DNA from: Pseudonocardia sp. SCN 73-27
GTDB taxonomy: Bacteria; Actinomycetota; Actinomycetes; Mycobacteriales; Pseudonocardiaceae
Direction of reading: 5' to 3'
NCBI GenBank assembly: GCA_001725415.1
Contig: MEGH01000016.1
Coordinates: forward strand, 79,721 to 143,720
DNA length: 64,000 bases
The position numbers and the translations under genes were made by a program. Under the pieces are notes generated by a model. The model ran no database searches. It was not told where the DNA came from and saw nothing but the letters and a program-made list of their open reading frames with translations. Below are positions 7,728 to 30,117 of the stretch, piece after piece. Position 1 is the stretch's first letter. Each line of letters starts with the position of its first letter.

Positions 7728-7997
7728 TCAAGCGCGCGGGGCGAGGTCGAGCCGCTCCGCGACAAGGGGGCGAGAATGGCCGCTGCTCGGACGCAGGTTG
7801 GCGAACAGCCGCGTCAGGAGGCTCGACGCCGACTGGCTGTCCGTCGCGGGGTCACGGTCCTCCAGCTCGGCGACCCGGGCCGCGAGCACCGACAGCTCCA
7901 TCCCGAGCGTGAGGACCATCGCCGCCAGCTGGTCGACGGTGGCGCTGCCCAGGAACGCCGGCTCCGGGCCCTCCGCGAACTCGTCGATGTCGATCAT
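7728..7997 (-). CDS. Small helical protein paired with methyltransferase (cluster A)
   Basis: This 89-residue protein is not recognised. It overlaps the methyltransferase stop by 4 bp (ATGA). It has an amphipathic helical core with F-L-G-x4-V-x2-L-x3-V-L-x-L-x2-E, then R-V-A-E-L-E. The protein at 18,650-18,961, which follows the paralogous methyltransferase in cluster B, has the same pattern with Y-L-G. It may be an accessory subunit of the methyltransferase. This is inferred only from conserved pairing and weak similarity. It is the last gene of the cluster A operon. Confidence 0.7.
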   Translation of the reverse strand: MIDIDEFAEGPEPAFLGSATVDQLAAMVLTLGMELSVLAARVAELEDRDPATDSQSASSLLTRLFANLRPSSGHSRPLVAERLDLAPRA

Positions 7998-9091
7998 GCT
8001 GCTCCCTCCTCGACCGTCTCCGCCGCGGGCTTGTGCGCCTCCAGCACCGCCCACGGGAGGTGCCACTCGGCGCGTTCCGGATATCCGTCGGGCAGCTCGG
8101 CCCCGGTGCGCTCGTCGAACGGCACCCAGCGCGCCCCGGCCAGCCCGACCGCAGCCAGCTCCCGTTCGACGTCGAACTCCATGAGCCCGGGCATGAACGG
8201 CTCGTTCTGACGCCAGGCGTGGTCCTCCATCACGGCGTCGCGGAACAGGTCGCCGGTGCGGGTGAACTCGAGGAACCGCACGATGCCGCCGGGCGCGAGG
8301 ATGCGGGCGGTCTCGGCGAAGGTCGCGCGCAGCACGTCGGGCGGCATCTCGTGCAGGACCATCGTCCCGGTGACGACGTCGGTGCTCGCGTCGGGAAGGC
8401 CCGTCGCGGACGCGTCGCCCTGCCGGAACGTGATCTCCAGGCCGTCGTCGTCGGCGCGGGTCGCGGCGAGCCGTACGCACGGCCCGGAGAACTCGATCCC
8501 GATGACGTCGGCGTCGGCGTAGCGCTCCTTGAACGGCCGGGTGCTCTTGCCGAAACCGGAGCCCATGTCGACGATGCGCCCGTACGTCTCGCCGGGGAAC
8601 GTCGCGGTGAACCGTCGGTGCAGCTCCAGGCCGCGGTTGCGGCCGACGTGCAGCACCTGCGTCCCGATCTCGTAGACGAGCGCCGACGCGTCCGCACCCC
8701 ACACGCCGCCGGGCTGGCAGTGGATGTCGTGGTCGCGGTACCAGGCCGGCAGCTCGAGGTCGGGGTCGAGCTCGGCGCGCGAGAGGTGCGGTGGCCGGAG
8801 GTCGTCGCCGAGGGCGTCCCAGTTCCGCTCGACGACGTCGTTGACGACCCGCCACTTGAGCACCTGGGCGCCGCGTTCGAGGAACCCGAACCAGCCGTAG
8901 CTCGGGCACCGATCGACGAGCTCGCCCGCCTCCTCCAGCGTCGCCGGGGCGCCCTCCCGCTCGGCGAGCGCGTCGAACTCGGCGCGCAGCCGGCCGAAGA
9001 CGTCGGTCGACCACAGCTTCCTCATCGCGGTCAGGTAGTCGATGCGGCGGCGGTCGTCGTCACCGACGGTGTCGAGTGCGATGCGTGCCAT
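7994..9091 (-). CDS. Class I SAM-dependent methyltransferase (cluster A)
   Basis: The 365-residue protein has a Rossmann methyltransferase domain with motif I D-M-G-S-G-F-G-K-S (175-183) and the acidic strand-2 end V-I-G-I-E-F-S-G. The post-motif segment V-V-T-G-T-M-V-L-H-E-M is also present. The first ~170 residues form an unusual domain containing W-Y-R-D-H-D-I-H-C-Q-P-G-G-V (117-130). The cluster B paralogue (17,559-18,653) shares both parts over its full length. The methyl acceptor is unknown. The gene lies 27 nt after the hydrolase-like gene and overlaps the small-protein gene, so it is part of the cluster A operon. Confidence 0.88.
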   Translation of the reverse strand: MARIALDTVGDDDRRRIDYLTAMRKLWSTDVFGRLRAEFDALAEREGAPATLEEAGELVDRCPSYGWFGFLERGAQVLKWRVVNDVVERNWDALGDDLRPPHLSRAELDPDLELPAWYRDHDIHCQPGGVWGADASALVYEIGTQVLHVGRNRGLELHRRFTATFPGETYGRIVDMGSGFGKSTRPFKERYADADVIGIEFSGPCVRLAATRADDDGLEITFRQGDASATGLPDASTDVVTGTMVLHEMPPDVLRATFAETARILAPGGIVRFLEFTRTGDLFRDAVMEDHAWRQNEPFMPGLMEFDVERELAAVGLAGARWVPFDERTGAELPDGYPERAEWHLPWAVLEAHKPAAETVEEGAA

Positions 9092-9118
9092 CCCTGTTCC
9101 TTCCGGGGTCCGATGTGG

Positions 9119-9961
9119 TCAGGACGTCCGCGGCGCGGTGCGCGCGGCGAGCAACTCGTCGACGAGCACGTCGAGGGCGGCGGCGAAGTCGGCCGGGGCC
9201 TCCCACGGGGCGAAGTCGGTCAGGCCCGGGAGCGTGACGACGCGGCTGCCGAGCGCGCGGGTGACGCGGTCCTGCCGGGCGGCGATCAGGTCCTCGGACC
9301 CGATCAGCACCGCGGACGGGATCCCGGTGGCCCGGAACGCATCGACGATCGGTGCGACGGGCAGCGCGAACACCGCCCGGTAGGCGGCCGCGTAGCCGGG
9401 ACGGGCCACGAGGTAGTCGCACACGGCGCGGTTGCGCAGCGCGACGTCGACGTCGGGATAGAGGTGGGTCAGCCGCGCCCAGATCGTCGCGAGGTGGGTG
9501 CCGTCGGGGTCGTCGTCGATGTCGGGGGCGTAGTGCGCGGCGCGGTCGGCGCGTTCGGCGTCGGTGTACAGCGACACCCCGTGGAAAACGACGGCGGCGA
9601 CGTCGCCGGGGTGCGCGGCGGCCACGAGCATCGCCAGGTGGCCGCCGGTGTGCTGGCCGACGAGGACCACCCGTCGGCCGTCGCGCAGCACCTCGACCGC
9701 GTCCCAGAGTGCGGCGGCGTAGTCGGCGAGATCGCCCACCCCCGGGTCGGACAGCCCGTAGCCCGGGGTGTCGAGGATCGCGACCGGCCCGGGGTGCGCG
9801 AGATGGTCGAGCACCGGCTCGTGCGTCCAGCCCGACAGCGGCGACTGGTGCAGGATCGCGACGAGCGGGGCCGCGCCCGCGTCGTCGGCCGCCGGGCGCA
9901 ACCGGGCGCCGATGCGTCCGCGCGGCGTCGGGACCGTCGTCAGGGCCCACGCGGCGGTCAC
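9119..9961 (-). CDS. Alpha/beta-hydrolase fold protein with His at the nucleophile position (cluster A)
   Basis: This 280-residue alpha/beta-hydrolase fold protein has the oxyanion-loop region L-H-Q-S-P-L-S (37-43). At the nucleophile elbow it reads G-Q-H-T-G (102-106), with H104 in place of Ser. The acid loop G-S-E-D-L (D224) is kept. The position of the catalytic His is occupied by Asp in P-G-L-T-D-F (D249). The cluster B paralogue has the same substitutions. A classical Ser esterase mechanism is therefore unlikely; the residues could bind a metal or act as acid/base. The GTG start overlaps the M20-like stop (GTGA). Confidence 0.85.
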   Translation of the reverse strand: MTAAWALTTVPTPRGRIGARLRPAADDAGAAPLVAILHQSPLSGWTHEPVLDHLAHPGPVAILDTPGYGLSDPGVGDLADYAAALWDAVEVLRDGRRVVLVGQHTGGHLAMLVAAAHPGDVAAVVFHGVSLYTDAERADRAAHYAPDIDDDPDGTHLATIWARLTHLYPDVDVALRNRAVCDYLVARPGYAAAYRAVFALPVAPIVDAFRATGIPSAVLIGSEDLIAARQDRVTRALGSRVVTLPGLTDFAPWEAPADFAAALDVLVDELLAARTAPRTS

Positions 9962-11337
9962 GTCGCCATCCCGACGATGATCGCGGCGAGGTGCCGCAGC
10001 CCGAGGCGGTAATCCTCGACGAGGATGTTCTCGTCGGGCCCGTCGACGCTCGAGTCGGGACGCGCGATCCCGACCCCGACGACGGGCACGCCTGCCGCCG
10101 CCACCAGCGCTCGGGTGCCGATCCAGACCGTCGTCGCCTCCAGCACAGGCGGTGCGCCGTGCGCCAGCTCCGCCGCCTCCGCGACGACGCCCGCGAACCA
10201 TCCCGACGAGTCGGTCGCCTCGGGCTCGCCGGCCCGTCGCACCTCGATGTCGAGCCCGTCGTCGAGCCCCTGCTCGGCGAGGAAGGCGCGGAACGCGGCG
10301 AGGACCCCCTCGGTGCTCTGGCCGGGGACGAGGCGGACCTCGATCCCGGCGCGGCACCCGGCCGGGACGCCGAGTGCGACCGAGCCCTCCGGCGGACCCG
10401 CGTGGATCCACGACAGCACGATCGTCGGCGTCGTCCGCACCGCGAACGCCGGGCTCTCGACGGCGTCCAGGCTGTCGCGCAAGGACTCGCCGGCCCGCCC
10501 GACCAGGTACTCCCGGTCGAACGGCATCGCCGCGAGGGCCGCGGCGTCGGCCTCGCCCCACGGCGTGACCGCGTCGAGGAACCCGGGGACGTGCCGGCCG
10601 TCGGTGAACCGGGTCAGTGCCGCAGCGGCCGCGACGACCCGGGCCGCCGCCTGCGGGAGCAGGATCGCGTTCTGCGAGCTGAGGTCACGGTCAAGCGCCC
10701 GGAAGCCGATCTCGAGGTAGAGGATCCCCTTCTCCCCCAGCTTGAGCAGCGGCCGGCCGTCGAAGTCGCTCCAGGAGTTCTCCCAGAGGGCGCCGTCGGC
10801 GCGGACGAAGTCCGGGTACCCGTCGACCACCCCGGCCAGCGCGGGGGCTCCGAGGGTGCGCTTTCCCTCCACCAGGAACCGCACCTCGACGGGCAGCTCG
10901 ACGCCGGCCTTCGCGAAGGCGTCGACGACGTGGATCCGCGAGAGCAGCGCGGCCTTGTCGTCGGCGATGCCGCGGGCGAACATCCGGCCGTCGCGGCGGG
11001 CGGGCTCGTACGGCGGCGTCGTCCACGCCTCGTCGGGGCCCGGCGGCTCGACCTCGACGTCGTAGTGGTTGAAGTTGAGCAGGGAGCGCTCGCCGGTACC
11101 CACCCTGGCCAGCAAATACGGATAGGCGCGGGCGGATTCCACCACCTCGACCGACGCGCCCAGGGCGCGCAGCCGGCGCTCGATCCACTCCTTGGTCGCG
11201 AGCATCCCGTCGGGTTCCTCGCGCCGTGACCGGAACCGGCAGAGCTCCTCGAGCTCGTCGAGGTAGCCGTCGAACGAGGCGTCGATCGCCTCCCAGACCG
11301 CGTCGACGCGCTCCTGGGGGGTCGCGGCGGGGGTCAC
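9958..11337 (-). CDS. M20-peptidase-like protein with altered active site (cluster A)
   Basis: This 459-residue protein aligns by eye with the M20 dipeptidase/carnosinase-type family. It keeps the first zinc ligands, N-H-Y-D-V (H91, D93) and A-D-D-K (D126). The usual E-G-E-E-E segment is E-G-K-R-T (157-161), so the catalytic base and a ligand Glu are gone. The lid-domain H-S-G is replaced by D-L-S-S-Q-N, and the last His ligand by D-G-P-D-E-N. The cluster B copy carries equivalent changes. It is probably a related but different hydrolase, or a non-hydrolytic enzyme. It overlaps both neighbours by 4 bp. Confidence 0.85.
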   Translation of the reverse strand: MTPAATPQERVDAVWEAIDASFDGYLDELEELCRFRSRREEPDGMLATKEWIERRLRALGASVEVVESARAYPYLLARVGTGERSLLNFNHYDVEVEPPGPDEAWTTPPYEPARRDGRMFARGIADDKAALLSRIHVVDAFAKAGVELPVEVRFLVEGKRTLGAPALAGVVDGYPDFVRADGALWENSWSDFDGRPLLKLGEKGILYLEIGFRALDRDLSSQNAILLPQAAARVVAAAAALTRFTDGRHVPGFLDAVTPWGEADAAALAAMPFDREYLVGRAGESLRDSLDAVESPAFAVRTTPTIVLSWIHAGPPEGSVALGVPAGCRAGIEVRLVPGQSTEGVLAAFRAFLAEQGLDDGLDIEVRRAGEPEATDSSGWFAGVVAEAAELAHGAPPVLEATTVWIGTRALVAAAGVPVVGVGIARPDSSVDGPDENILVEDYRLGLRHLAAIIVGMAT

Positions 11338-12143
11338 CACTTCCCCCCGCCGGGGCTGAAGATCTCCGTCATCCGGTCGATCACGTCGTCGGGCGCCCGC
11401 CTGGTGTCGTAGCTGTCGTCGTCGGGCGCCCACACGTGCAGCCGGCGGGCCCGGGCCGCCGTCTCGGCGGTGAGCATGACCAGGCCGTCGCAGTCGATGA
11501 CGGGGAGTCCGCCCACCTCGTGGATCCCGGCAGCCCAGAGCATCTCGTTGGGCAGGCCCTCGCCCGGGACGATGCACTGGGCGCCCTGTGCGCGCAGCGT
11601 CGTCGCGGCCTCGCCCATCGCCTCGGCCAGCGCGTCGGTGGAGCCGTCGCGGGTGGCGGCGGTGACCAGGTCGCGGCCACCGGGCAGGTACGCGAAGCCC
11701 GCGCAGGACTCGGCGAGCCCCAGCCGCCGGATGTTCGCGGTCAGCGCCTCCTGCAGCTCGGGGATGAACCCGACGACGCCGAAGCGCAGCCCGTGCGTGC
11801 GGGCCAGGGAGAACGCCGTCTCGCCGTAGGCCAGCACCGGGATCGAGACGAGCGACCGGGCCATCGCCAGTCCCGGGTCCTGGCTCGTGCCGATGACGTA
11901 GGCGTCGTACCCGGCGCGTTCGGCCTTCACCGCCTGGGAGGCGAAGTACCAGGAGAAGAAGACTTCGATCTGGCCGAACCGGACGTAGTCCGCCGGGATC
12001 TGGTCGTCGTAGACCGCATCCGGAAGGCCGACGAACGTGACCTCCGCGCGGTCCTCGAGCATCGCCTTCGCGTGCTTCGGATAGGTCTCGTCGAGCCACG
12101 GGTTGCGCCCGATGATCGTGTGCTTCTGGAACCAGATCTTCAA
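11334..12143 (-). CDS. Asp/Glu/hydantoin-racemase-like protein lacking both catalytic Cys
   Basis: The 269-residue protein has the hydantoin-racemase branch pattern D-P-G-L (89-92). Racemases use two cysteines. Here the first position reads I-G-T-S-Q-D-P (T86) and the second reads I-V-P-G-E-G-L-P (E195), so neither is present. The remaining Cys residues (147, 190 and one in I-D-C-D-G) are at other positions. Racemization by the usual two-base mechanism is unlikely; decarboxylation, isomerization or hydrolysis are possible. It is the second gene of the operon, 31 nt after the flavoprotein. I saw no copy in cluster B. Confidence 0.8.
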   Translation of the reverse strand: MKIWFQKHTIIGRNPWLDETYPKHAKAMLEDRAEVTFVGLPDAVYDDQIPADYVRFGQIEVFFSWYFASQAVKAERAGYDAYVIGTSQDPGLAMARSLVSIPVLAYGETAFSLARTHGLRFGVVGFIPELQEALTANIRRLGLAESCAGFAYLPGGRDLVTAATRDGSTDALAEAMGEAATTLRAQGAQCIVPGEGLPNEMLWAAGIHEVGGLPVIDCDGLVMLTAETAARARRLHVWAPDDDSYDTRRAPDDVIDRMTEIFSPGGGKW

Positions 12144-12174
12144 CGGTTCTCCCTCGTGGATCGTGGGCCGGGCC

Positions 12175-14193
12175 TCAGCGGGTGAGCAGCGGGAGGGCGT
12201 CGAGCCCGCGCTGCGCAGCGGTGCGCGCGGCGGGGTCGTCGCGGTGCCGGACGTCGGCGAGGGTGCGCAGCGCGCCGATCCGCCCGGACCACACGGCCCA
12301 GCCCGCGTCGCGGGGCGCGTACGCGTCGCCGACGACGCGGTGCGGCACAGGAAGGCGGGACGGCGACGCGGGCAGTGCGACGCCCGCGTCCCAGACGGCG
12401 TCGACGTCGCCGACCGCGGTCCCGGTGGCGGGCAGGCTCGTCCGCAGCGTCACCGCCCGGTCGCGGCGGCCCTCGATCGTGCTCATCAGGTGGACGTGCA
12501 GCAGCCCGGACTCCCGAAGCCGCGCGAGCAGCCCGAGCCGCGAGTAGACGGTGACGCCCGGCGCCAGGCTCTGCAGCGGCGTCACGTAGTGCGTCTCGAC
12601 GCCGTGGTGCACGAGGTGCTCGACGAGCCCCCACGCCTCCCAGCCGCCGCGTTCGTCGTGCACGACGGCGCGGCGGACGCCGGACAGGTCAGGGACACCG
12701 GCCCGGAAGGACCGGACCGGCGCCAGGTCCCGTCGTGGCTCGACGACGGCACCCGTCGCAAGGACGACGCCGTCCCACGCGCCCGTGGCGAGCAGGTCGG
12801 CGTCGAACGCGACACCGAGCCGCACGTCGACGCCCTGCGTGCGGCACTGCCGATCCTGGTCCTCGACGAGCCGCAGCCACCCGGCGCGGCCGTGCAGCCC
12901 GCCGGCCGTGCGCAGCGCCCCGCCGAGTACGTGCTCCCGCTCGACGAGCGTGACGTCGGCCCAGCGCGACGCCGTCACCGCGGCTTCGGCGCCGGCCGGG
13001 CCGCCGCCGACGACGAGGATCCGCGACCGGGAGGGGTCGCGGTCGTACGCGCCGTACGCGTCGGCCCATGCCGTCTCCAGCCCGACCTCGGGGTTGACGA
13101 CGCAGCTGATCGGCAGGCCGCCCGACGAGCGGCCGATGCACAGCTGGTTGCACCACGTGCACCGGCGCACCGCCTCGCCGTCACGGTGCTTGCGGACGAG
13201 GCCGGGGTCGGCGATGTGTGCGCGCGTCATGGCCGTCGCGTCGGCACAGCCCCGGGCCAGGACGTCCTCGGCCACCTCGAGCGAGTCGACGCGGCACGCC
13301 AGCAGCGTGGCGACACCGTTGGGCAGCCGGTCCCGCACGGCCTTCCCGAGGTGTGCGAAGGGCGCGGAGCCGTAGGACATGTCGGCCATCTGCGTCGACA
13401 GCGATGGTCCGCCGACGTAGGCGGAGTGGCTGACGTCGACGAAGTCCAGCCGGTACGACGAGGCCCACCGTGCGGCGTACTCCGCCATGACGTCGACGCC
13501 GAGGCCGCCGTCGACGAACTCGTCGGCGCTGATCCGGACGCCGAACGCCACGTGGGCGGGGACGAGGTCCCGGGTCCGCGTGAGCACCCGTTCGACGAGG
13601 CGCTCCCGGTTCGCGGGCGTGCCGCCGTAGTCGTCGTCGCGGGCGTTGCTCGTCGGGGAGAGGAACTGCTGCAGCAGGTGCCCGTGGCCGAGGTGGATCT
13701 CGACGCCGTCGAACCCCGCGGCGACCGCGCGGACGACCCCGCCGGCGAAGCAGTCGACCAGCTCGTCGATCTCGTCGGCCGTCATGGCGTGCGGAACCGC
13801 CGCGCCCCGGCTCCAGGCGATCGGGCTCGGGCCCCACGACGGTGTGCGTGTGTAGTCGTCGGCCGCCTCGCGTCCGGAGTGGAGGATCTGCGCGAAGACC
13901 GCCGCGCCGTCGGAGTGCACCGCGTCGGTCAGCCGGCGCAGCGGTGCGACGACGTCGTCGGACCAGATCGAGAGGGCCTCGGGGCGCTTCAGGCTCGTCG
14001 GATGGACGCGCAGTCCCTCGGTGACGATGAGCCCGACACCGCCCGCGGCCCGCGCCCGGTGGTAGGCGACGAGCCGGTCGGAGACGACGTGGCGCTCGCC
14101 GAGGTTGGTCGTGTGGGCCGAGACGAAGACACGGTTCCGCATCGTCACGGGACCGATCGTCAGCGGCCGGAACACCTGCCCGAGAGCCGTCAC
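12175..14193 (-). CDS. Old-Yellow-Enzyme/Fe-S NAD(P)H:flavin oxidoreductase (cluster A)
   Basis: The 672-residue protein has the architecture of 2,4-dienoyl-CoA reductase and trimethylamine dehydrogenase. An FMN TIM barrel comes first, then a C-X2-C-X3-C plus distal C [4Fe-4S] motif (C-T-W-C-N-Q-L-C, then S-C-V-V-N-P). A C-terminal FAD/NAD(P) domain follows (R-I-L-V-V-G-G-G-P-A-G-A-E-A-A). The active-site H-G-Y-L of relatives reads H-G-H-L here, with Tyr changed to His. I chose the GTG at 14193, preceded by CAGGAG; an ATG at 14259 is possible but would take in the operator. It is the first gene of the cluster A operon, opposite the IclR gene. Confidence 0.92.
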   Translation of the reverse strand: MTALGQVFRPLTIGPVTMRNRVFVSAHTTNLGERHVVSDRLVAYHRARAAGGVGLIVTEGLRVHPTSLKRPEALSIWSDDVVAPLRRLTDAVHSDGAAVFAQILHSGREAADDYTRTPSWGPSPIAWSRGAAVPHAMTADEIDELVDCFAGGVVRAVAAGFDGVEIHLGHGHLLQQFLSPTSNARDDDYGGTPANRERLVERVLTRTRDLVPAHVAFGVRISADEFVDGGLGVDVMAEYAARWASSYRLDFVDVSHSAYVGGPSLSTQMADMSYGSAPFAHLGKAVRDRLPNGVATLLACRVDSLEVAEDVLARGCADATAMTRAHIADPGLVRKHRDGEAVRRCTWCNQLCIGRSSGGLPISCVVNPEVGLETAWADAYGAYDRDPSRSRILVVGGGPAGAEAAVTASRWADVTLVEREHVLGGALRTAGGLHGRAGWLRLVEDQDRQCRTQGVDVRLGVAFDADLLATGAWDGVVLATGAVVEPRRDLAPVRSFRAGVPDLSGVRRAVVHDERGGWEAWGLVEHLVHHGVETHYVTPLQSLAPGVTVYSRLGLLARLRESGLLHVHLMSTIEGRRDRAVTLRTSLPATGTAVGDVDAVWDAGVALPASPSRLPVPHRVVGDAYAPRDAGWAVWSGRIGALRTLADVRHRDDPAARTAAQRGLDALPLLTR

Positions 14194-14205
14194 GCCGTCG
14201 CTCCT

Positions 14206-14222
14206 GTTCCCTTGAGAGGAAC
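14206..14222. promoter_or_regulatory. IclR-type operator GTTCC-N7-GGAAC upstream of cluster A
   Basis: GTTCC (14206-14210), CTTGAGA, GGAAC (14218-14222) is a perfect dyad 13 bp before the cluster A flavoprotein start. A third half-site follows: GGAACAC pairs with GTGTTCC at 14233-14239 across 8 bp. Two and a half sites fit the cooperative binding of IclR regulators. The same dyad recurs at 14,337 and, with one mismatch, at 15,360. Confidence 0.65.
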
Positions 14223-14336
14223 ACCGATCGTTGTGTTCCCGGCCCAGCGATGAGAACATCCGCTCAGTTCGAAGGCAATATGTCGCACCGTTCCTCGTGA
14301 CCAGCGCGACGCCGGGCGACGAGCGACGACCGGGGT

Positions 14337-14353
14337 GTTCCTCTGGAGGGAAC
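14337..14353. promoter_or_regulatory. IclR-type operator GTTCC-N7-GGAAC upstream of the IclR gene
   Basis: GTTCC, TCTGGAG, GGAAC forms a perfect dyad ending 10 bp before the GTG of the IclR gene. It matches the site in front of cluster A, which suggests autoregulation together with control of the divergent operon. Confidence 0.65.
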
Positions 14354-14363
14354 GGAGGACGGA

Positions 14364-15128
14364 GTGCCTGAGGCGGGTGTCGGCACGACCGCGAGCGACC
14401 GCGTCGCGGACGTCCTGCTGCTCTTCGCCGGCGGTCCGCGCACGGTCGGGGTCACGCGGGCGGCCCGCGAGCTCGGACTGCCCAAGTCGGTCGTCCACCG
14501 CATCCTGCAGTCCCTCACCGGACGGGGCCTCGTGGCCTACGACGCCGCGCGCCGTGAGTACACGCTCGGTCCCGCCGCGGCCGCGCTGGGCGGCCGGGCG
14601 CTGCGTGAATCGGACCTGCGATCGACGGCGCTCCCGCACCTCGTCGACCTCCGCGACCGGCTGCAGGAGACCGCCACGGTGAGCGCGAAGGTTCCGGGTG
14701 GACGTTTGTTCCTCGACCAGGTCGTGGGCGCACACGAGATCACGATGTCGGTCGAGGTCGGGCGTCGGCTGCCGCTGCACGCGGGGTCCGTCGGCAAGTG
14801 CATCCTCGCGTTCTCGGCGCCCGGGGAGATCGACCGCGCGCTGGCGGCCGGGCTGGTGTCGCTGACGCCGGAGACCGTCACCGACCCCGCGCGGCTGCGG
14901 GCCGAGCTGGCCCGCATCCGTGCCGACGGGTTCGCGTCGTCGGCCGGTGAGCGACAGGCCGGCGCCGCCTCGGTCGCCGCTCCCGTCCTCGACGGCGCGG
15001 GCGAGGTCGTCGGTGCGGTCTCGCTCTGCGGCCCTCGCTTCCGCCTCACCGACTACCGGATCGCGGTCCTCGCGCCCGAGGTCGTCGGCGCGGCGGCGCG
15101 GGTGAGCAACGGGCTCGCCGCCGGCTGA
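14364..15128 (+). CDS. IclR-family regulator between clusters A and B
   Basis: The 254-residue IclR regulator has an N-terminal winged HTH (A-S-D-R-V-A-D-V-L-L-L-F, recognition region G-L-P-K-S-V-V-H-R-I-L). The effector domain shows L-H-A-G-S-V-G-K-C-I-L-A-F and the late G-A-V-S-L-C-G-P strand. The start is a GTG at 14364, with GGAGG a few bases upstream. The gene lies between the two paralogous clusters. GTTCC-N7-GGAAC dyads lie in its own leader, before cluster A, and (one mismatch) before cluster B, so it is the best candidate for their common regulator. It resembles the IclR at 25,718 more than the one at 238. Confidence 0.92.
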   Translation: MPEAGVGTTASDRVADVLLLFAGGPRTVGVTRAARELGLPKSVVHRILQSLTGRGLVAYDAARREYTLGPAAAALGGRALRESDLRSTALPHLVDLRDRLQETATVSAKVPGGRLFLDQVVGAHEITMSVEVGRRLPLHAGSVGKCILAFSAPGEIDRALAAGLVSLTPETVTDPARLRAELARIRADGFASSAGERQAGAASVAAPVLDGAGEVVGAVSLCGPRFRLTDYRIAVLAPEVVGAAARVSNGLAAG

Positions 15129-15376: not shown

Positions 15377-15407
15377 GCTGTACGGCTCACCGGAACGAGG
15401 AGGTCGG

Positions 15408-17438: not shown

Positions 17439-17445
17439 AAGCGCG

Positions 17446-17483
17446 GGCGGACCGACGTCGGACCGCCCCGTCGAACCCGACGG
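17446..17483 (+). promoter_or_regulatory. Tandem hairpins in the leader of the cluster B methyltransferase
   Basis: Just after the flavoprotein stop, GGCGG-A-CCGACGTCGG-A-CCGCC (17446-17467) forms a 22-bp dyad. CCGTCG-AACC-CGACGG (17468-17483) forms a second hairpin, and paired GCCGGC blocks near 17520-17540 could form a third. The 120-bp gap is unusual among otherwise overlapping genes. The hairpins may partly terminate transcription or protect the downstream mRNA, changing enzyme ratios. No reading is proven. Confidence 0.45.
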
Positions 17484-17558
17484 CACCGACCTGAACGACA
17501 CCTGCACACCGAACCGCCGCGCCGGCATCGCGCCGGCCGAGACCCCGGAGGTCATTTC

Positions 17559-18653: not shown

Positions 18654-18961
18654 GCGACGAGTTCGACTACCTGGGCGACCGCCGGATCTCCAAGCTGCTG
18701 GACCTGGTCCTGCAGCTCGCCACGGAGGTCCACGTCGGACGCCAGCGCACCCGGGCGCTCGAGCAGCTGCTCGTGCGCTCCGGCACCCTGACCGCCGGCG
18801 ATCTGGACACGTTCCGGGCCACCGCCGAGGAGGGCGCCGCGCTCGACCTCGAGCGCGACGCCTACACCCGCCGGCTCGTCCGGATCATCACCGAGTCCGG
18901 CCCGGCCGAGCACCCGCTGCGCGAGCAGTGGGAGGACGCCCTCGCCACGAAAGCCGGCTGA
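18650..18961 (+). CDS. Small helical protein paired with methyltransferase (cluster B)
   Basis: The 103-residue, charged, helix-rich protein shows no recognised domain. The pattern Y-L-G-x3-I-x2-L-x3-V-L-x-L-x2-E-V and R-A-L-E-Q-L matches the small protein of cluster A (7,728-7,997). It overlaps the methyltransferase gene by 4 bp and the SnoaL-like gene by 1 bp (TGATG). Conserved coupling in both clusters suggests it binds or activates the methyltransferase. No function is known to me. Confidence 0.75.
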   Translation: MSDEFDYLGDRRISKLLDLVLQLATEVHVGRQRTRALEQLLVRSGTLTAGDLDTFRATAEEGAALDLERDAYTRRLVRIITESGPAEHPLREQWEDALATKAG

Positions 18962-19374
18962 TGTCGGCCGCGGCCGCCGTCGAGCGGGTCGACGCGTACC
19001 TGACGCTGTGCGAGCAGCGCCGTCTCGACGAGGCGGCGGCCCATCTCGCGCCCGGCGCCCGGCTCGTCTTCCCCGGCGGGGTGGTCCACACCGACCTGCC
19101 GTCGATGGTGGCCGCGGCGAAGGGCCGGTACCTGCAGGTGGGCAAGCCGCAACGGCGCTATCTCGCCGGTTCGGACGGCTCGGGGGCCACCACCGTCACC
19201 TGCCTGGGCACCCTGTCCGGGCGGTGGCTCGACGGCACGTCCTTCTCCGGGATCCGTTTCGTCGACGTGTTCGTGTTCGACGGCGAGCTCATCGCCGAGC
19301 AGCACGTGTTCAACGACCTCTCGATCGCCGCGGTGGACGCGGCGAGTCCCCCTCACCTGGAGACCACCCCATGA
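18961..19374 (+). CDS. SnoaL/NTF2-like protein
   Basis: The 137-residue protein has the NTF2-like pattern: an N-terminal helix (A-A-A-V-E-R-V-D-A-Y-L-T-L), then curved strands with G-A-R-L-V-F-P-G-G and F-S-G-I-R-F-V-D-V-F-V-F-D-G. Members include ketosteroid isomerases, cyclases, dehydratases and binding proteins. No catalytic pair can be assigned with certainty. It overlaps the small-protein stop by 1 bp and the binding-protein start by 4 bp, so it is co-translated with the importer. It may act on a cyclic intermediate of the cluster B pathway. Confidence 0.72.
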   Translation: MSAAAAVERVDAYLTLCEQRRLDEAAAHLAPGARLVFPGGVVHTDLPSMVAAAKGRYLQVGKPQRRYLAGSDGSGATTVTCLGTLSGRWLDGTSFSGIRFVDVFVFDGELIAEQHVFNDLSIAAVDAASPPHLETTP

Positions 19375-20492
19375 ACACCGGACGCAAGCTGCTCGGCGCA
19401 CTCGCCGCCGGCAGCATCCTCCTGCTGGCTGCCTGTGGCGGCGGCAGCTCCGACAGCGGCAGCGGGTCCGGCGGCAGCGGCGCGCCGGCGAAGCTGACCT
19501 TCGCCATCGCGTCGGCCGTCATCGGCCCGAAGGAGGAGGTGGCCGTCTACGCCGTCGCGCAGAAGATGGGCTACTTCTCCGAGGAGGGCCTGACCGTCGA
19601 CACCATCAACGCCGACGGATCCGTCGCCGCGATCCAGGCCGTCGCCTCCGGCAGCGGCAGCATCACCGCCTCCGACGCGGGCTCGGCGCTGGCCGCTGCG
19701 CAGAAGAACGTCCCGATCACCACGGTGGGCGGCCTCGTCCAGAACTGGCCGTGGAAGATCGCCACCAAGCCCGACTCGTCGGTCAAGAGCGCCGCGGACC
19801 TCAAGGGCAAGAAGCTCGGCGTGATCAGCCTGGCGTCGGGCTCGGCGCCCTACGCCCGGGCGTTCGTCAAGGCGGCGGGTCTCGACCCGCAGACCGACGT
19901 CGAGCTCGTGCCGGTCGGTGTCGGCGCCCAGGCGGCGGCCGCGCTCAACGGCGGCCAGGTCGACGCGCTGGCCCTCTACACCCAGGCCTACACCGTCATC
20001 GAGCTGTCGGGGACCAAGCTCACCTACCTCGACAACCCCGACATCTTCACGGGCATCCGGTCGCTGACCTGGACCGCCTCGACGAAGGCGTTCAAGGACA
20101 ACCCCGAGGTCTACGGCAAGTTCCTGCGCGCCGCGTACAAGGCGATGCTGTTCTCCGCCTCGAACCCCGAGGCCGCCATGCGCATCGGCTACCAGGTGTT
20201 CCCACAGATCCTCGGCGGCGCCGACCCGTCGACGCGGCTGGCCAACGACACCGAGACGCTGAAGACCTGGATCAAGACCGCCACCCCGGCCACCGGTGAC
20301 CCGTCGTCGTGGAAGGACTGGGGCGCGATCAGCGACCCCGAGTGGGCGAAGACCCAGGCCTACACGCAGCAGGCCGGCCAGATCACCGCGCCGATCGAGC
20401 TCTCCAAGATCTGGGACCCGTCGCAGCTGCAGACCGCCAACCAGTTCGACTCGGCCGCGGTCATCAAGCAGGCCGCCGAGTACAAGCCCTGA
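19371..20492 (+). CDS. ABC transporter substrate-binding lipoprotein (SsuA/TauA/NrtA type)
   Basis: This 373-residue lipoprotein has a signal peptide and lipobox L-L-A-A-C-G-G (lipidated C22), then a Gly/Ser-rich linker. The mature part fits the NMT1/THI5-like binding fold used for nitrate, sulfonates, taurine and pyrimidine precursors (K-M-G-Y-F-S-E-E-G-L-T-V, L-K-G-K-K-L-G-V-I-S). The ATG overlaps the SnoaL-like stop by 4 bp. With the next two genes it makes a complete importer, probably for the pathway substrate. The ligand cannot be read from sequence; a small anionic or heterocyclic compound would fit the family. Confidence 0.9.
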   Translation: MNTGRKLLGALAAGSILLLAACGGGSSDSGSGSGGSGAPAKLTFAIASAVIGPKEEVAVYAVAQKMGYFSEEGLTVDTINADGSVAAIQAVASGSGSITASDAGSALAAAQKNVPITTVGGLVQNWPWKIATKPDSSVKSAADLKGKKLGVISLASGSAPYARAFVKAAGLDPQTDVELVPVGVGAQAAAALNGGQVDALALYTQAYTVIELSGTKLTYLDNPDIFTGIRSLTWTASTKAFKDNPEVYGKFLRAAYKAMLFSASNPEAAMRIGYQVFPQILGGADPSTRLANDTETLKTWIKTATPATGDPSSWKDWGAISDPEWAKTQAYTQQAGQITAPIELSKIWDPSQLQTANQFDSAAVIKQAAEYKP

Positions 20493-20539
20493 ACGACGAC
20501 CACATCCGACGGGCCGACCCCCGACATGGAGGACACGCC

Positions 20540-21370
20540 GTGAGCCTGCGCGCACCCGGCCGGCAGACCAGCCCGGCCACCACGGCCGAGACCGACACCG
20601 ACGCGTGGATCCGCGTGGCGGGTCTCGACAAGACCTACAAGGCACGCCGTTCCGAGCCGACCGTCGCACTGCAGGGCATCGACCTGTCGGTGCGCCGCGG
20701 CGAGTTCGTATCGGTGGTCGGCCCGTCGGGCTGTGGCAAGACGACGATGCTCAAGATCCTCGCCGGCCTCGTCTCCCGCACCGCGGGTGACGTCCAGATC
20801 GCCGGCAACGACGTGAACGGGCCGCTCCCGGAGATCGGGATGGTCTTCCAGGCTGCGACCCTGCTGCCCTGGCGGACCGTGCGGCAGAACGTCATGGTCC
20901 CGGCCGAGGTCCAGGGCCTGGACAAGGAGCGCTACGGCACCCGGGCCGACGAGCTGCTCGAGATGGTGGGCCTCGGCGAGTTCGCCGACAGCTACCCCTA
21001 CGAGCTCTCCGGCGGCATGCAGCAGCGCGCCGGCATCTGCCGCGCGCTGGTGCACGACCCCGCGGTGCTGCTCATGGACGAACCGTTCGGCGCACTCGAC
21101 GCCATGACCCGCGAGTACATGAACGTCGAGCTGCTGCGCATCTGGCAGCAGAGCGGCAAGACGATCGTGCTGGTCACGCACTCGATCCCGGAGGCGGTGT
21201 TCCTCTCCGACCGGGTCGTCGTGCTCAGCGCCCGGCCCGGGCGGATCGCCGAGATCGTCGACGTGGAGCTCGACCGGCCGCGCGAGCTCTCGGTCATGGC
21301 CAGTGACCGGGCCGGCGTCTACGTCGACCGGATCCGTCGCCACTTCAACGCCACCAGCGTCATCGACTGA
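20540..21370 (+). CDS. ABC transporter ATP-binding protein (SsuB/TauB type)
   Basis: The 276-residue ATPase has Walker A G-P-S-G-C-G-K-T-T (near 74-82), a Q-loop in V-F-Q-A-A-T-L-L-P-W, the signature L-S-G-G-M-Q-Q-R-A, Walker B V-L-L-M-D-E-P-F-G-A-L-D, and a switch His in V-T-H-S-I-P-E-A. L-L-P-W-R-T-V-R-Q-N-V is typical of the nitrate/sulfonate/taurine subfamily. I chose the GTG at 20540, preceded by GGAGGA. It energises uptake with the adjacent permease and lipoprotein. Confidence 0.95.
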   Translation: MSLRAPGRQTSPATTAETDTDAWIRVAGLDKTYKARRSEPTVALQGIDLSVRRGEFVSVVGPSGCGKTTMLKILAGLVSRTAGDVQIAGNDVNGPLPEIGMVFQAATLLPWRTVRQNVMVPAEVQGLDKERYGTRADELLEMVGLGEFADSYPYELSGGMQQRAGICRALVHDPAVLLMDEPFGALDAMTREYMNVELLRIWQQSGKTIVLVTHSIPEAVFLSDRVVVLSARPGRIAEIVDVELDRPRELSVMASDRAGVYVDRIRRHFNATSVID

Positions 21371-21398
21371 GCCCGGCGGGCTTGGAAGGAGGGACCGC

Positions 21399-22265
21399 AT
21401 GACCACCGCAGCACCCACCGGCAACACCGTCTCCGACCCGCCGGGCCACTCCCCGAAGGAGAAGGCCGCGAAGCAGCGCAACCCGCGCTTCGACGTGCGC
21501 GAGCGCCCCGAGCTGCTCCTCGTCCCGGCCGTGTTCGTCGTCCTGATCCTGGTGTGGGAGTTCGTCATCCCGCTGTTCGTCGACGACTACGTGCTCCCGG
21601 TGCCCTCGCGCATCGTCGACTCGCTCGGCCAGCAGCTCACCGACCCGCTCTTCTGGGGCCACCTCGAGGTGACGCTGCGCGAGTCGCTGATCGGCTTCGT
21701 CATCGGCGTCGGCACCGCGATCCTGCTCGGCACCGCCATCTCGCAGGTGCGGCTCGTCGAGAAGACGTTGATGCCCTACGTCGTCGCGTTCCAGACCGTG
21801 CCGAAGGTCGCGCTCGCGCCACTGTTCGTCGTGTGGTTCGGCTTCGGCCTGACCAGCAAGATCGTCATGGCGGCGGTCATCTCGTTCTTCCCGATGCTGA
21901 TCAACGTCATCGAGGGCCTCAAGGCGGCCGACGCCGACCGCATCCAGATGCTGACGGTGTTCGGCGCGAGCAAGCTGCAGGTCTTCCGGATGGTCCGGCT
22001 GCCCAGCGCGATGCCGTTCATCTTCGCCGGCCTCGACATCGGCATCGTGTTCGCGATCCTCGGCGCGGTCGTCGGTGAGTTCATCGGCGCCAAGGAGGGC
22101 CTGGGCTACCTGCTGCTGCAGACCAACTACAACTTCGACATCGCCGGCATGTTCGCCGTGCTCGTCGTCCTCTCGGTGCTCGGCCTGCTCGCGCACTTCC
22201 TGATCCGTTTCGCCCAGCGCAAGATCGCGTTCTGGGCCGAGGAGAGCCGCGTGATCGCCGCATGA
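21399..22265 (+). CDS. ABC transporter permease (SsuC/TauC type)
   Basis: The 288-residue BPD-type permease has about six membrane segments, starting at L-L-L-V-P-A-V-F-V-V-L-I-L-V-W-E-F. The EAA-type coupling loop lies in F-G-A-S-K-L-Q-V-F-R-M-V-R-L-P-S-A-M-P. A cytoplasmic N-terminus of about 40 polar residues precedes the first segment. The ATG at 21399 has GGAAGGAGGG upstream. The stop overlaps the SDR start by 4 bp, which ties the importer to the catabolic genes that follow. Confidence 0.93.
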   Translation: MTTAAPTGNTVSDPPGHSPKEKAAKQRNPRFDVRERPELLLVPAVFVVLILVWEFVIPLFVDDYVLPVPSRIVDSLGQQLTDPLFWGHLEVTLRESLIGFVIGVGTAILLGTAISQVRLVEKTLMPYVVAFQTVPKVALAPLFVVWFGFGLTSKIVMAAVISFFPMLINVIEGLKAADADRIQMLTVFGASKLQVFRMVRLPSAMPFIFAGLDIGIVFAILGAVVGEFIGAKEGLGYLLLQTNYNFDIAGMFAVLVVLSVLGLLAHFLIRFAQRKIAFWAEESRVIAA

Positions 22266-23011
22266 CCAGGCAGGACCCGAACTCGTTCGCGGGGCGCGTC
22301 GCGCTCGTCACCGGCGCCGCCCGCGGCATCGGCGCGACGATCGCAGAGACGCTCGCCGAGCGCGGCGCCGTCGTCGCGAACGCGGACGTGCTGCCGCTCG
22401 ACGACTGGACCAACCCCCTCGGCGAGCCGCACTCCCGGCACACCCTCGACGTCCGCTCCCAGGAGTCGGCCGACGCCGTCGTCGCCGAGGTGCTCGCACG
22501 CCACGGCCGGCTCGACCACGTCGTCAACGGCGCGGGCATCGTGCGCCGCGGCCCGGCCGCGACGATGACCGACGAGACCATCGCCGAGGTGCTCGACGTC
22601 AACCTCACGGGCACCTTCCGGGTCTGCCGGGCCGCCCGCGCGGCGCTCGTCGAGACGTCCGGGTCGATCGTCAACATCGGCTCGACCAACGGCCACATCG
22701 CGGTGCGCAACACCCTCGGCTACTGCCTCAGCAAGGCAGGCGTCATGCACATGGCCCGGGTGCTCGCCCTCGAGTGGGCCCCCGACGCGATCCGCGTCAA
22801 CGCCGTCGGCCCGACGATCGTGCCGACCGACATGACCTCCTCATTGCGCGTCGACGACACCTACATGGCCGACAAGATGGCGACGATCCCCATGGGCCGC
22901 ATGGCCGAGACGCAGGACGTGGCCGACACCGTCGCCTACCTGCTCAGCCCCGCGGCCGGCATGGTCACCGGCCAGACGATCTTCGTCGACGGCGGCGTCA
23001 CGATCCACTGA
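22262..23011 (+). CDS. Short-chain dehydrogenase/reductase (cluster B)
   Basis: The 249-residue classical SDR has the cofactor motif T-G-A-A-R-G-I-G (near 17-24), N-G-A-G-I, catalytic Ser in N-I-G-S-T-N-G, and Y-C-L-S-K (Tyr and Lys). An Asp-type second strand end (A-D-V-L-P-L-D-D) favours NAD+. It overlaps the permease by 4 bp. A role as an alcohol or hydroxy-acid dehydrogenase in the pathway is likely; the substrate is unknown. Confidence 0.9.
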   Translation: MTRQDPNSFAGRVALVTGAARGIGATIAETLAERGAVVANADVLPLDDWTNPLGEPHSRHTLDVRSQESADAVVAEVLARHGRLDHVVNGAGIVRRGPAATMTDETIAEVLDVNLTGTFRVCRAARAALVETSGSIVNIGSTNGHIAVRNTLGYCLSKAGVMHMARVLALEWAPDAIRVNAVGPTIVPTDMTSSLRVDDTYMADKMATIPMGRMAETQDVADTVAYLLSPAAGMVTGQTIFVDGGVTIH

Positions 23012-23053
23012 CCCCGTTCCCCGACTTCCCCGACACCCTCCCGGAGGACCCCC

Positions 23054-24481
23054 GTGGGCGACGCGCCCGGAAGCACGCAGGTGAGCACGGCCCCCGCAGC
23101 GAACGACCGCACCGCGGTCGAGGCCGCGCTCGCCGCCGTCGACGCGCACTTCGACGAGTTCGTCGTCGAGCTGCAGGAGCTGTGCCGGTTCCGCAGCCGC
23201 CGCCAGGAGCCCGACCAGATGGCCGCGACCGCACAGTGGCTCGCCGAGACCGCGCGCCGCCACGGCGCGTCGGCCGACGTCATCCCCTGGGAGCACTCGC
23301 ACCCCTACGTGCTGACCGAGATGCCCGGCGGGCCGAAGCGGCTGCTGCACTTCACCCACTACGACGTCGAGGTCGAGCCGGCGGGCGACGACTCCGACTG
23401 GGTCAGCGGCCCGTACGAGGCGGCCGTCCGCGACGGCGCGCTCTACGCCCGCGGTGTGGCCGACGACAAGGGCGTGATCATGTCGCGGCTGCACGCCGCC
23501 GCGGCCTGGCGGCTCGCGGGCCTCACCCCGCCGGTCACCAACGTGATCATCATGGAGGGCAAGCAGATGCTGCACTCCCCGGGTCTCGGGTCCTTCACCG
23601 CCGCCCACGCCGAGCAACTGGCCTCCGACGCCGCGCTCTGGGAGAACTCCTGGCGCGACAGCGAGGGCCGGCCGCTGCTGAAGCTCGGCGAGAAGGGCGT
23701 GCTCTACCTGCGTCTGAAGGTCCGCACCCTGCCCCGCGAGCTGACCAGCCAGAACACCGCGCTGCTGGCGTCGGCGACGACGCGGCTCGTCGGCGCGCTG
23801 GCCGGGATGGTCACCCCTGACGGCACCGTTCTCGTGCCCGGGTTCGCCGACGGCGCCCGCAAGCCGACCGACGCCGAGCTGGCTCTGCTCGGCGAGATCG
23901 AGTTCGACGGCGAGTTCCTGCGCCGCCGCGCCGGCGTCGACGGCTTCATCGGCGACGTCGACGACCGCGAAGCCGCCGTCGCGATCCGCACCCGCCCGAC
24001 CATGACGATCGCGAGCCTCACCGGCGGCGACGACCGCGACGACGTCACCCTCGGCATCCCCGCCGAGGCGTCGGCCAAGGTCGAGGTCCGGCTCGTCGCC
24101 GGACAGGACCCGCAGCAGGTCGTCGACGCGATCCGCGTCCACCTCGACGGCACCGGGTTCGCCGACGTCGAGATCGACGTCATGGCCACCAGCCGGCCCA
24201 GCCTGACCGACCACCGCGACCCGTTCGTCGCGCTCGTCGCCGACGCCGCCCGTCGCACCTACGACGCCGAGCCCGTCATCGAGCCCTACACGCAGTGGAT
24301 CGGCAACCAGGGCGTGCTGGCCGACCGGCCGATCGTCGGGGTGGGGGTGTCGCGCGCCGACTCGGGCGTCGACGGCCCCAACGAGCAGATCCTGCTCGAG
24401 GACTACCGGGCAGGCATCAAACACGTCATCGAGATCATGGCCGCCATGGCGGCCGGGAACGGCACGGAGGAGTCGGCGTGA
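23054..24481 (+). CDS. M20-peptidase-like protein with altered active site (cluster B)
   Basis: The 475-residue paralogue of the cluster A M20-like protein keeps T-H-Y-D-V (H102, D104) and A-D-D-K-G (D137/D138). The E-G-E-E-E segment is E-G-K-Q-M (168-172). The lid-domain H-S-G is E-L-T-S-Q-N, and the final His ligand is D-G-P-N-E-Q. Both copies share L-W-E-N-S-W and L-K-L-G-E-K-G, so the rebuilt site is under selection rather than decaying. The GTG start follows a 42-bp gap; the stop overlaps the next gene by 4 bp. Metal binding through the kept His/Asp pairs is possible, but ordinary peptidase chemistry is doubtful. Confidence 0.85.
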   Translation: MGDAPGSTQVSTAPAANDRTAVEAALAAVDAHFDEFVVELQELCRFRSRRQEPDQMAATAQWLAETARRHGASADVIPWEHSHPYVLTEMPGGPKRLLHFTHYDVEVEPAGDDSDWVSGPYEAAVRDGALYARGVADDKGVIMSRLHAAAAWRLAGLTPPVTNVIIMEGKQMLHSPGLGSFTAAHAEQLASDAALWENSWRDSEGRPLLKLGEKGVLYLRLKVRTLPRELTSQNTALLASATTRLVGALAGMVTPDGTVLVPGFADGARKPTDAELALLGEIEFDGEFLRRRAGVDGFIGDVDDREAAVAIRTRPTMTIASLTGGDDRDDVTLGIPAEASAKVEVRLVAGQDPQQVVDAIRVHLDGTGFADVEIDVMATSRPSLTDHRDPFVALVADAARRTYDAEPVIEPYTQWIGNQGVLADRPIVGVGVSRADSGVDGPNEQILLEDYRAGIKHVIEIMAAMAAGNGTEESA

Positions 24482-25305
24482 GGAGCCTCGGGGGCCGCGC
24501 GCAGCGCGGATACGTCGACCTGCCATGGGGGCAGGTGCACTACCGCCACGGCGGCGACGCCGGTGCCCCGGCCGTCCTGGTGCTGCACCAGTCGCCGCTG
24601 TCGTCGGCGACCTACGAGGCCGTCATCGAGCCGCTGGCAAAGCGTGGGCTGCGCGTCGTCGCGCCCGACACCCCCGGGTTCGGCATGTCCGACCCGACGC
24701 CGACGACCTGGACCATCCCCCAGTACGCCGAGGCGGCCTGGACGTTCGCCGACGCCGTCGGGCTGGGCACGGTGCACCTGCTCGGCCAGCACACCGGTGC
24801 CGTGATCGCCGCCGAGGCCGCATTCCAGCAGCCCGGGCGCGTCGACGGGATCGTCCTGCAGGGCCTCCCCCTCTACGACGACGCCGAGCGCGTCCAGAAG
24901 AAGACCGTCTACGCACCGCCTTACGAGCCGGTCGAGGACGGCGGCCACGTGCGGGTCATCCGCGACCGGGTGAAGGGTCTCTACCCGCGGCTGGACGTCG
25001 CCGAGACCGACCGGCAGGTCGTCGAGTACCTGCAGACCGGCCCCGACTACGCGACGGCCTACCGCGCGGTGTTCGACCACGTCGTCGACACCGACCGGCT
25101 CGACACCTTCCCGGTCCTGCTGCTGCACGGCGCGGACGACCTCGTCGACCGGATGACCCCGCAGGTCACCGCGGCGCTGCCGCACGCCGGGCTCGTCACC
25201 ATCCCCGGCGGCACCGACTTCGTCGCCGACGAGCAGCCCGAGGCCTTCGCCGACGAGCTCGCCCGCTACGTCCTGCGCGTCCCCGCCGCCGGCGGTGCCC
25301 GGTGA
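24478..25305 (+). CDS. Alpha/beta-hydrolase fold protein with His at the nucleophile position (cluster B)
   Basis: The 275-residue paralogue of the cluster A protein has L-H-Q-S-P-L-S (36-42) and the nucleophile elbow G-Q-H-T-G (103-107), with H105 replacing Ser. The acid loop is H-G-A-D-D (D220/D221). The catalytic His position is Asp in P-G-G-T-D-F (D247), followed by the usual E-Q-P-E-A-F. Ser to His and His to Asp in both copies indicates a conserved alternative mechanism. It overlaps the M20-like stop (GTGA). The order M20-like then hydrolase-like is the same as in cluster A, so the two proteins may act in sequence or together. Confidence 0.85.
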   Translation: MRSLGGRAQRGYVDLPWGQVHYRHGGDAGAPAVLVLHQSPLSSATYEAVIEPLAKRGLRVVAPDTPGFGMSDPTPTTWTIPQYAEAAWTFADAVGLGTVHLLGQHTGAVIAAEAAFQQPGRVDGIVLQGLPLYDDAERVQKKTVYAPPYEPVEDGGHVRVIRDRVKGLYPRLDVAETDRQVVEYLQTGPDYATAYRAVFDHVVDTDRLDTFPVLLLHGADDLVDRMTPQVTAALPHAGLVTIPGGTDFVADEQPEAFADELARYVLRVPAAGGAR

Positions 25306-30114: not shown

Positions 30115-30117
30115 CAC

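Follow-up and report, generated by a model that had tools for sequence, protein, structure and literature searches.

Paired gene clusters of a Pseudonocardia genome share a methyltransferase–small protein unit and may encode upper pathways for the catabolism of small cyclic nitrogen compounds

The lower pathway of aerobic nicotinate degradation includes an alpha/beta hydrolase with a Ser triad (NicD), an isochorismatase-fold amidase (NicF) and a maleate isomerase (NicE). Here, we describe two gene clusters, A and B, that can be compared with this pathway and lie in a 64,000-nucleotide stretch (the window) of contig 16 in the 6.95 Mb genome of the soil-type actinobacterium Pseudonocardia sp. 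SCN 73-27. Both clusters encode an alpha/beta-hydrolase-fold protein with a GxHTG motif; near relatives of this gene, racemase-fold genes occur in Shinella and isochorismatase-fold genes in Novosphingobium, reminiscent of NicD/NicF/NicE, but no ring-cleaving dioxygenase is seen in cluster A or B. The clusters share paired, conserved genes, among them a methyltransferase (MT) tightly paired with a small protein (SMALL) and two hydrolase-type proteins with altered active sites; selection acts on both clusters, and cluster B adds an importer and lower-pathway genes. We read A and B as two paralogous upper-pathway modules of operons that break down small cyclic nitrogen compounds resembling amides, imides or ureides, a reading in which we place slightly more belief than doubt.

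In order of transcription, cluster A (minus strand, 14193 to 7728) encodes an Fe-S flavoprotein of the old yellow enzyme type (OYE_A), a racemase, an M20-like protein (M20_A), the GxHTG protein (HYD_A), MT_A and SMALL_A. Cluster B (plus strand, 15408-32440) begins with OYE_B, MT_B, SMALL_B, an NTF2/SnoaL-like protein and a three-gene NMT1-type ABC importer, and continues with an SDR, M20_B, HYD_B, Ohr, IclR_B, CaiB, a PF04199 cyclase, PrpD, a hydantoinase-type enzyme and HpcH. An earlier note on this DNA ended cluster B at 25305, whereas its operon runs to about 32440; the importer and coenzyme A (CoA)-level lower-pathway genes that the note ascribed to it are present. The features are as follows.

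7728..7997, minus strand: SMALL_A, small helical partner of MT_A, 89 amino acids (gene call, alignment, profile; 4-nucleotide overlap with MT_A)
7994..9091, minus strand: MT_A, class I S-adenosylmethionine (SAM) methyltransferase with a helical N-terminal domain (Pfam, blastp, alignment)
9119..9901, minus strand: HYD_A, alpha/beta-hydrolase fold, GQHTG elbow, His codon 9650-9652 (start codon uncertain)
9958..11340, minus strand: M20-like protein A, lacking the catalytic Glu and the ligands of the second metal (Pfam, alignments)
11334..12143, minus strand: Asp/Glu/hydantoin racemase family, cluster A only (PF01177, 71 bits)
12175..14193, minus strand: OYE_A, Fe-S flavoprotein of 2,4-dienoyl-CoA reductase/OYE type (Pfam, NCBIfam, alignment)
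14364..15128, plus strand: IclR_A regulator, between the clusters (blastp, 47% to IclR_B)
15408..17438, plus strand: OYE_B (Pfam, NCBIfam, alignment)
17559..18653, plus strand: MT_B (Pfam, alignment, AlphaFold2 model)
18650..18961, plus strand: SMALL_B, 103 amino acids (gene call, profile; 4-nucleotide overlap with MT_B)
18961..19374, plus strand: NTF2/SnoaL-like protein (SnoaL_2 20.5 bits, under the curated cut-off of 27)
19371..20492, plus strand: NMT1/THI5-like solute-binding protein (Pfam; N-terminus lipoprotein-like by eye)
20540..21370, plus strand: ABC transporter ATPase (Pfam)
21399..22265, plus strand: ABC transporter permease (Pfam)
22262..23011, plus strand: SDR oxidoreductase (profile match)
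23054..24481, plus strand: M20-like protein B, lacking the catalytic Glu and the ligands of the second metal (Pfam, alignments)
24478..25305, plus strand: HYD_B, GQHTG elbow, His105 codon 24790-24792, Asp247 codon 25216-25218 (Pfam, alignment, model)
25302..25721, plus strand: Ohr/OsmC-type peroxiredoxin (TIGR03561, above cut-off)
25718..26581, plus strand: IclR_B regulator (Pfam)
26599..27807, plus strand: CaiB-type CoA transferase (profile match)
27837..28679, plus strand: PF04199 cyclase/amidohydrolase (profile match)
28672..30114, plus strand: MmgE/PrpD family protein (profile match)
30118..31584, plus strand: hydantoinase/allantoinase-type cyclic amidohydrolase (profile match; metal residues present by eye)
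31589..32440, plus strand: HpcH/CitE-type C-C lyase (profile match)

Gene calls and all-against-all blastp of the called window proteins pair the OYE proteins (45% identity, 675 columns), the MTs (46%, 355 columns), the M20-like proteins (44%, 457 columns) and the alpha/beta-hydrolase proteins (42%, 234 columns). SMALL_A and SMALL_B have no blastp match to each other among the window proteins and are 33% identical once aligned; a profile of 54 members, from which all actinobacterial rows were left out, finds the frames holding SMALL_B (E 1.2e-21) and SMALL_A (E 2.1e-7) and none of the rest of the 643-frame window set at E ≤ 10. The five gene types that the earlier note saw in both clusters are thus recovered, four by blastp and the small pair by profile. 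That note also counted one IclR gene; there are two (14364-15128 and 25718-26581), which are 47% identical, making six paired gene types rather than five. The cluster A racemase has no blastp partner in cluster B. Judged from the sequences, several full-length gene pairs at 42-47% identity are far beyond chance, and the separation of A from B can safely be called old.

Ratios of nonsynonymous to synonymous substitution (dN/dS) against genus-mate G017 are 0.11-0.30 for six cluster A genes and 0.08-0.49 for cluster B genes, which supports the view that both copies are kept by selection; a truncated 80-codon piece of the neighbouring DmpF gene, outside both clusters, gives 2.46. The earlier note's 'old, maintained duplication' stands as to age and maintenance, whereas duplication is one of two readings. 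In the MT tree, MT_A branches outside a group made up of MT_B and proteobacterial MTs, a placement that is weakly supported (86/70), and a topology uniting the actinobacterial A and B sequences passes the approximately unbiased test (p-AU 0.218), so that the clusters may descend from a duplication in this lineage or, equally, be two separately acquired relatives.

The best structural matches listed for MT, including CouO, DsyB, Rv2258c and RdmB, are class I SAM methyltransferases with which the MTs share the SAM-binding Rossmann domain. The SAM motif reads VVDMGCGFG and IVDMGSGFG in the two copies, with Methyltransf_25 matches at E 2.6e-20 and 7.3e-19. An AlphaFold2 model of MT_B (mean predicted local distance difference test score, pLDDT, 96.0) has a class I methyltransferase fold with an alpha-helical N-terminal part spanning residues 1 to ~146. 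Foldseek returns small-molecule methyltransferases as top matches (best E 1.4e-11), with TM-scores by query length of 0.35-0.50 in the 50 rows listed. These low scores, the helical N-terminal part and the accompanying small partner gene set the MTs apart from the described enzymes. NCBIfam gave no name for them, with generic matches far below cut-offs.

MT and SMALL form the widespread unit of the system. Across one set of 100 genomes, made up of the window's own and 99 relatives, the profiles of SMALL (E ≤ 1e-4) and MT (E ≤ 1e-40) each gave 8 genes in the identical 6 genomes, adjacent by coordinates in 8 of 8 cases; neither was found in the remaining 94, and none occurred alone. Two of the six, G029 and G064, are absent from both profiles and are therefore independent tests of the pairing. 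In a broader scan of genome contigs with the methyltransferase alignment, which confirmed at least 366 relatives, we analyzed the 80 best-scoring loci. Here, of 109 MT genes, those at contig ends included, 72 are accompanied by a same-strand SMALL no more than 1.5 kb away. Conversely, 71 of 75 SMALL matches lie within 1.5 kb of an MT gene, the other 4 being far from any. All but one of the 72 pairs are within 250 bases, with SMALL first in 38 and MT first in 34; gene order flips yet adjacency is kept, which argues for a physical or functional bond. The pair occurs in 60 of the 80 loci (Pseudomonadota 52, Actinomycetota 5, Fidelibacterota 1, Myxococcota 1, no assigned phylum 1).

SMALL itself belongs to no coherent family in Pfam or NCBIfam, against which 62 members were searched, and has no credible PDB match. 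The differing family names returned, each for at most 3 members, were taken as chance. A likeness to the N-terminal region of nitrile hydratase was rejected, because the whole-chain match (E 6.1e-4) arises from a short helix repeated within the chain and each stretch alone gives E 5.4.

The GxHTG proteins resemble haloalkane dehalogenases, PcaD and RutD in fold and length, but differ in having His at the nucleophile position and Asp where the catalytic His is expected. GQHTG forms the elbow of HYD_A and HYD_B alike and of 7/7 rows from orthologues, so that neither window copy has Ser, Asp or Cys as the nucleophile of a G-x-Nu-x-G motif. Nor does either have a catalytic His after the last strand, where the sequences are GLTDF (A) and GGTDF (B), a position that varies across the wider hydrolase set. 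In an AlphaFold2 model of HYD_B (pLDDT 91.9), strand 99-104, His105 and helix 106-117 occupy the place of the nucleophile elbow, and Asp247 follows the last strand, which we take to be the position of the expected His. Of 26 matches above 45 bits to the window hydrolases in the 80 loci, the elbow residue is His in 18, Ser in 4, Ala in 1 and unreadable in 3; the 20/20 His of our 20-row alignment (A5) is by choice, as its rows were picked for this residue. A quick tree joins HYD_A, HYD_B and a relative from G032 in a single clade (Shimodaira–Hasegawa-like approximate likelihood ratio test, SH-aLRT, 99).

This hydrolase family is wider than the MT pair. At E ≤ 1e-40, its profile finds 14 genes in 11 of 60 genomes (the window's own and 59 relatives), and six of these genomes (G010, G012, G022, G034, G079 and G081) have no MT in the profile search. 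By eye, some of the MT-less genes lie near Rieske, LigB-like or molybdopterin-enzyme genes; four such loci of genus-mates (L118-L121) include examples near IclR, LigB-like, Rieske, M20 or molybdopterin-enzyme genes (by eye), neighbors that suggest heteroaromatic catabolism. Plasmid-borne copies sit beside MT and SMALL in Antarctobacter (L099) and at two places in Novosphingobium pSA1 (L100). The two MT/SMALL/GxHTG sets of pSA1 stand ~10 kb apart, paralleling the twin sets of the window, and are accompanied, by eye, by Rieske, hydantoinase, HyuA/HyuB and TonB-receptor genes. Cofactor-independent oxygenases of N-heteroaromatics share the alpha/beta-hydrolase fold (PMC10548524) and provide a precedent for a non-hydrolytic role of this fold in N-heteroaromatic breakdown.

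The M20-like proteins are equally altered. M20_B is homologous over its whole length to the carboxypeptidase Sso-CP2 (4mmo; E 1.8e-45), and both copies share HYDV and DDK motifs with M20 dipeptidases and carboxypeptidases such as Sso-CP2 and CNDP2. In an alignment of nine A- and B-type sequences, from which very close or identical copies were left out, the first metal site is kept in 9/9 (HYDV and ADDK). By contrast, the Glu pair of the EGxEE motif is lost in 9/9, the sequence reading EGK, then Q/R/K, then M/T/W, and the C-terminal His of HxPNE is replaced by Asp in 9/9. For example, EGEEEIGS of Sso-CP2 becomes EGKQMLHS in B and EGKRTLGA in A, and its HAPNE becomes DGPNE or DGPDE. We assign the roles of these residues as metal ligands and catalytic Glu by assuming correspondence to carnosinase-type M20 enzymes; their loss in all nine sequences makes ordinary two-metal hydrolase activity unlikely for either copy. 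Thus, the labels 'M20-like' and 'hydrolase-like' of the earlier note hold for homology and fold but are doubtful for the activities they imply, since catalytic residues are missing in both copies of both proteins. M20 proteins also occur on plasmids (42 records; 28-34% identity among the 15 matches listed).

Like mycofactocin OYE_2 (TIGR03997), BaiCD and histamine dehydrogenase, OYE_A and OYE_B have two domains and a four-Cys Fe-S motif (C-x2-C-x3-C-x11-C, all four Cys aligned), with Oxidored_FMN matches at E 1.1e-60 and 1.1e-66. They fall outside mycofactocin OYE_2 proper, scoring 430 and 544 bits against a cut-off of 793. Tyr is the third residue of HGY, the usual OYE-type motif; both copies have His at this position, in HGHLLQQFLSP.

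The B arrangement of the five paired families is found again in Micromonospora endophytica (L009) and in two Streptomyces, S. sp. SM1 (L010) and S. oceani (L011), as well as in B-type operons of the genus-mates G017, G023 and G032, so that the B-type module is present in seven genomes of three genera, the window's own included. In S. oceani (7654-9700 of L011), the OYE_B orthologue is split over two open frames (417 and 264 residues) by a frameshift or assembly error. Because the module recurs outside this genome, the possibility that these families co-occur only here falls. Cluster A is complete in one further genome, G017, where the racemase lies in a longer open frame; beside cluster B in G023, all that is left of it is the racemase plus a stretch of 43 residues matching OYE_A. 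This remnant lies at ~14116-15430 of L093 (G023:C1:45000-64999), and its racemase is 96% identical. The recurrence that the earlier note proposed as a check is therefore found, but the set is narrow: at E ≤ 1e-70, the window's own genome is the only one of 396 sampled from the phylum to have the M20-like protein, with up to 4 first-look candidates per genome scored in the rows shown. That note's case for an undescribed system largely holds, with the amendment that the widespread unit is the MT–SMALL pair and not the five-gene set. As the note had said, no named pathway matched. Full-text searches, which cover few subscription papers, gave no description of the module among the matches listed, which dealt with alpha/beta-hydrolase enzymes in general and, in one case, with molinate degradation in Gulosibacter.

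What might the substrates be? The hydantoinase-type enzyme (30118-31584) contains, by eye, the motifs DAHQH, SFKIF, LHCE, LLHLSS and VSDH, which presumably supply the HxH, Lys, His, His and Asp metal residues. A second cluster in G032 (L122; G032:C13:27000-45000) shares its hydantoinase (70%), cyclase (73%), CaiB (71%), PrpD (63%) and SDR (46%) with cluster B, and also has an OYE (35%), a HYD relative (39%) whose elbow is GRATG, with Ala, a gene of the racemase type and an ABC importer of the dipeptide type. MT, SMALL and M20 are absent from the 18 kb read. The lower block is thus re-used with different upper genes. Within ~9 kb, 29 of the 80 MT loci have an amide- or ureide-cleaving family (hydantoinase, HyuA/HyuB, isochorismatase, AllA-like, PuuE-like, C-N hydrolase or amidase); among 35 control stretches from a single fixed position in relatives (40 were requested and 35 existed, one only 8.2 kb long), 1 does. 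These neighbors support cyclic amides, imides or ureides as the substrate class, without proving it, and the N-heterocycles that the earlier note put forward as candidates would fit the neighborhoods. A maleimide or hematinic-acid substrate is an idea from general chemistry alone; no work on bacterial breakdown of maleimides was among the literature matches listed, as far as their accessible text goes. Elsewhere in the window, at 60537-62400, a second cyclase (31% identity to that of cluster B) adjoins, by eye, an AraC-type regulator, and a similar cyclase (46%) and an AraC gene lie near a GxHTG gene of Shinella (L102).

Beyond the identity of the genes, we infer the following steps. The substrate of cluster B would enter through the NMT1-type ABC system, and OYE_B would reduce a ring C=C bond. 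MT, with SMALL as an obligate small subunit, would methylate an intermediate, or bind it together with SAM. With His replacing the Ser nucleophile, the GxHTG protein would perform acid-base rather than covalent chemistry, perhaps as a lyase, isomerase, decarboxylase or cofactor-free oxygenase; the M20-like protein, with at most a one-metal site, would be no ordinary peptidase or deacylase but would act on intermediates. Next, the hydantoinase and cyclase could open the ring and remove the amide nitrogen, and CaiB, PrpD and HpcH could turn the carbon skeleton into CoA thioesters and central metabolites. Cluster A, under its own IclR, would carry out the upper steps for a second, related substrate, and its product may feed the lower pathway of cluster B or the neighboring CoA genes (3810-7678).

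Several observations weigh against this scheme. First, methylation at the expense of SAM is unusual in a catabolic route, and neither an importer nor a lower pathway of its own was seen for cluster A. Second, 37 of the 109 MT genes in the 80 loci have no SMALL within 1.5 kb; some are at contig ends, but many others are not. Third, a wider hydrolase profile gives 37 matches in these loci of which only 19 have the elbow His (17 loci), the others having Ser (13), Ala (2), Tyr (2) or Leu (1). Fourth, the enrichment of amide families is biased upward, because the controls were not matched by taxon and the seeds came mostly from MT loci. Finally, none of the amide families looked for is present in 51 of the 80 loci, and many MT loci have differing neighbors, such as TonB receptors, other flavoproteins or cupins, which indicates that the pair serves more than a single class of substrate.

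A more far-reaching proposal, which we advance only tentatively and think rather doubtful, is that MT and SMALL form an undescribed, obligate two-subunit SAM-dependent enzyme, present in at least four phyla, that together with the GxHTG protein performs a new step in N-ring breakdown. This step may be, for example, a methylation-primed or cofactor-free ring opening, perhaps including that of tetrapyrrole-derived maleimides or related imides, and the M20-like protein of both clusters may then be a re-purposed single-metal or metal-free partner.

We consider it unlikely that the clusters are biosynthetic or tailoring modules, in which MT, the NTF2/SnoaL-like protein, SDR, OYE and a non-hydrolytic alpha/beta protein decorate a small natural product while a precursor is taken back up through the ABC system. 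By structure, MT indeed matches natural-product and small-molecule methyltransferases best (CouO, DsyB, Rv2258c, RdmB and AtmM), and SnoaL-like and SDR genes are neighbors. Nevertheless, a catabolic character is evident in the NMT1-type importer, IclR, CoA transferase, HpcH/CitE lyase, PrpD and hydantoinase, Pfam finds no carrier-protein, nonribosomal peptide synthetase or polyketide synthase domain on 20 A/B proteins save a weak ketoreductase (KR) match of the SDR, and relatives carry, by eye, TonB receptors, MFS transporters and amidases. Just as improbable, in our judgment, is ordinary catabolism, with a routine OYE reductase, dipeptidase-like M20 protein, esterase and methyltransferase of separate known pathways brought together by recent shuffling. 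All of the proteins except the small one belong to well-known superfamilies, and the B-type MT is patchy in the genus (3/59 sampled same-genus relatives), as shuffling would have it; gene order conserved across three genera, however, and active-site losses kept in both paralogues and their orthologues argue otherwise, and the joint retention of MT and SMALL in the 100-genome set is the opposite of families found apart. Least probable is a detoxification or redox-stress unit in which OYE, Ohr and MT do not support growth but render a toxin, electrophilic or aromatic, harmless: OYE enzymes do reduce electrophilic alkenes, and Ohr is present in cluster B and near a GxHTG gene in Shinella, but neither of the Streptomyces loci, L010 and L011, gave an Ohr match at E 1e-6, and such a unit has no need for a lower CoA pathway and two amidohydrolase types.

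One feature of the window lies apart from these subjects: positions 36001-40000 and 52001-56000 have AT skews of 0.179 and 0.153, above the rest of the window.

Returning to the catabolic reading of clusters A and B, unnamed catabolic operons as such are common. More broadly, in proteobacteria, actinobacteria, Myxococcota and Fidelibacterota, MT stays with its small partner while the catabolic genes around them change, which would point to a chemical step of general use that is still unnamed. Concrete examples of hydrolase folds that have likely been turned to other chemistry are the alpha/beta-fold protein with His for Ser and the M20-like protein lacking its catalytic Glu. If the proposed substrate class is correct, these modules would help to fill gaps in our picture of N-heterocycle and cyclic-imide breakdown by soil and marine bacteria.

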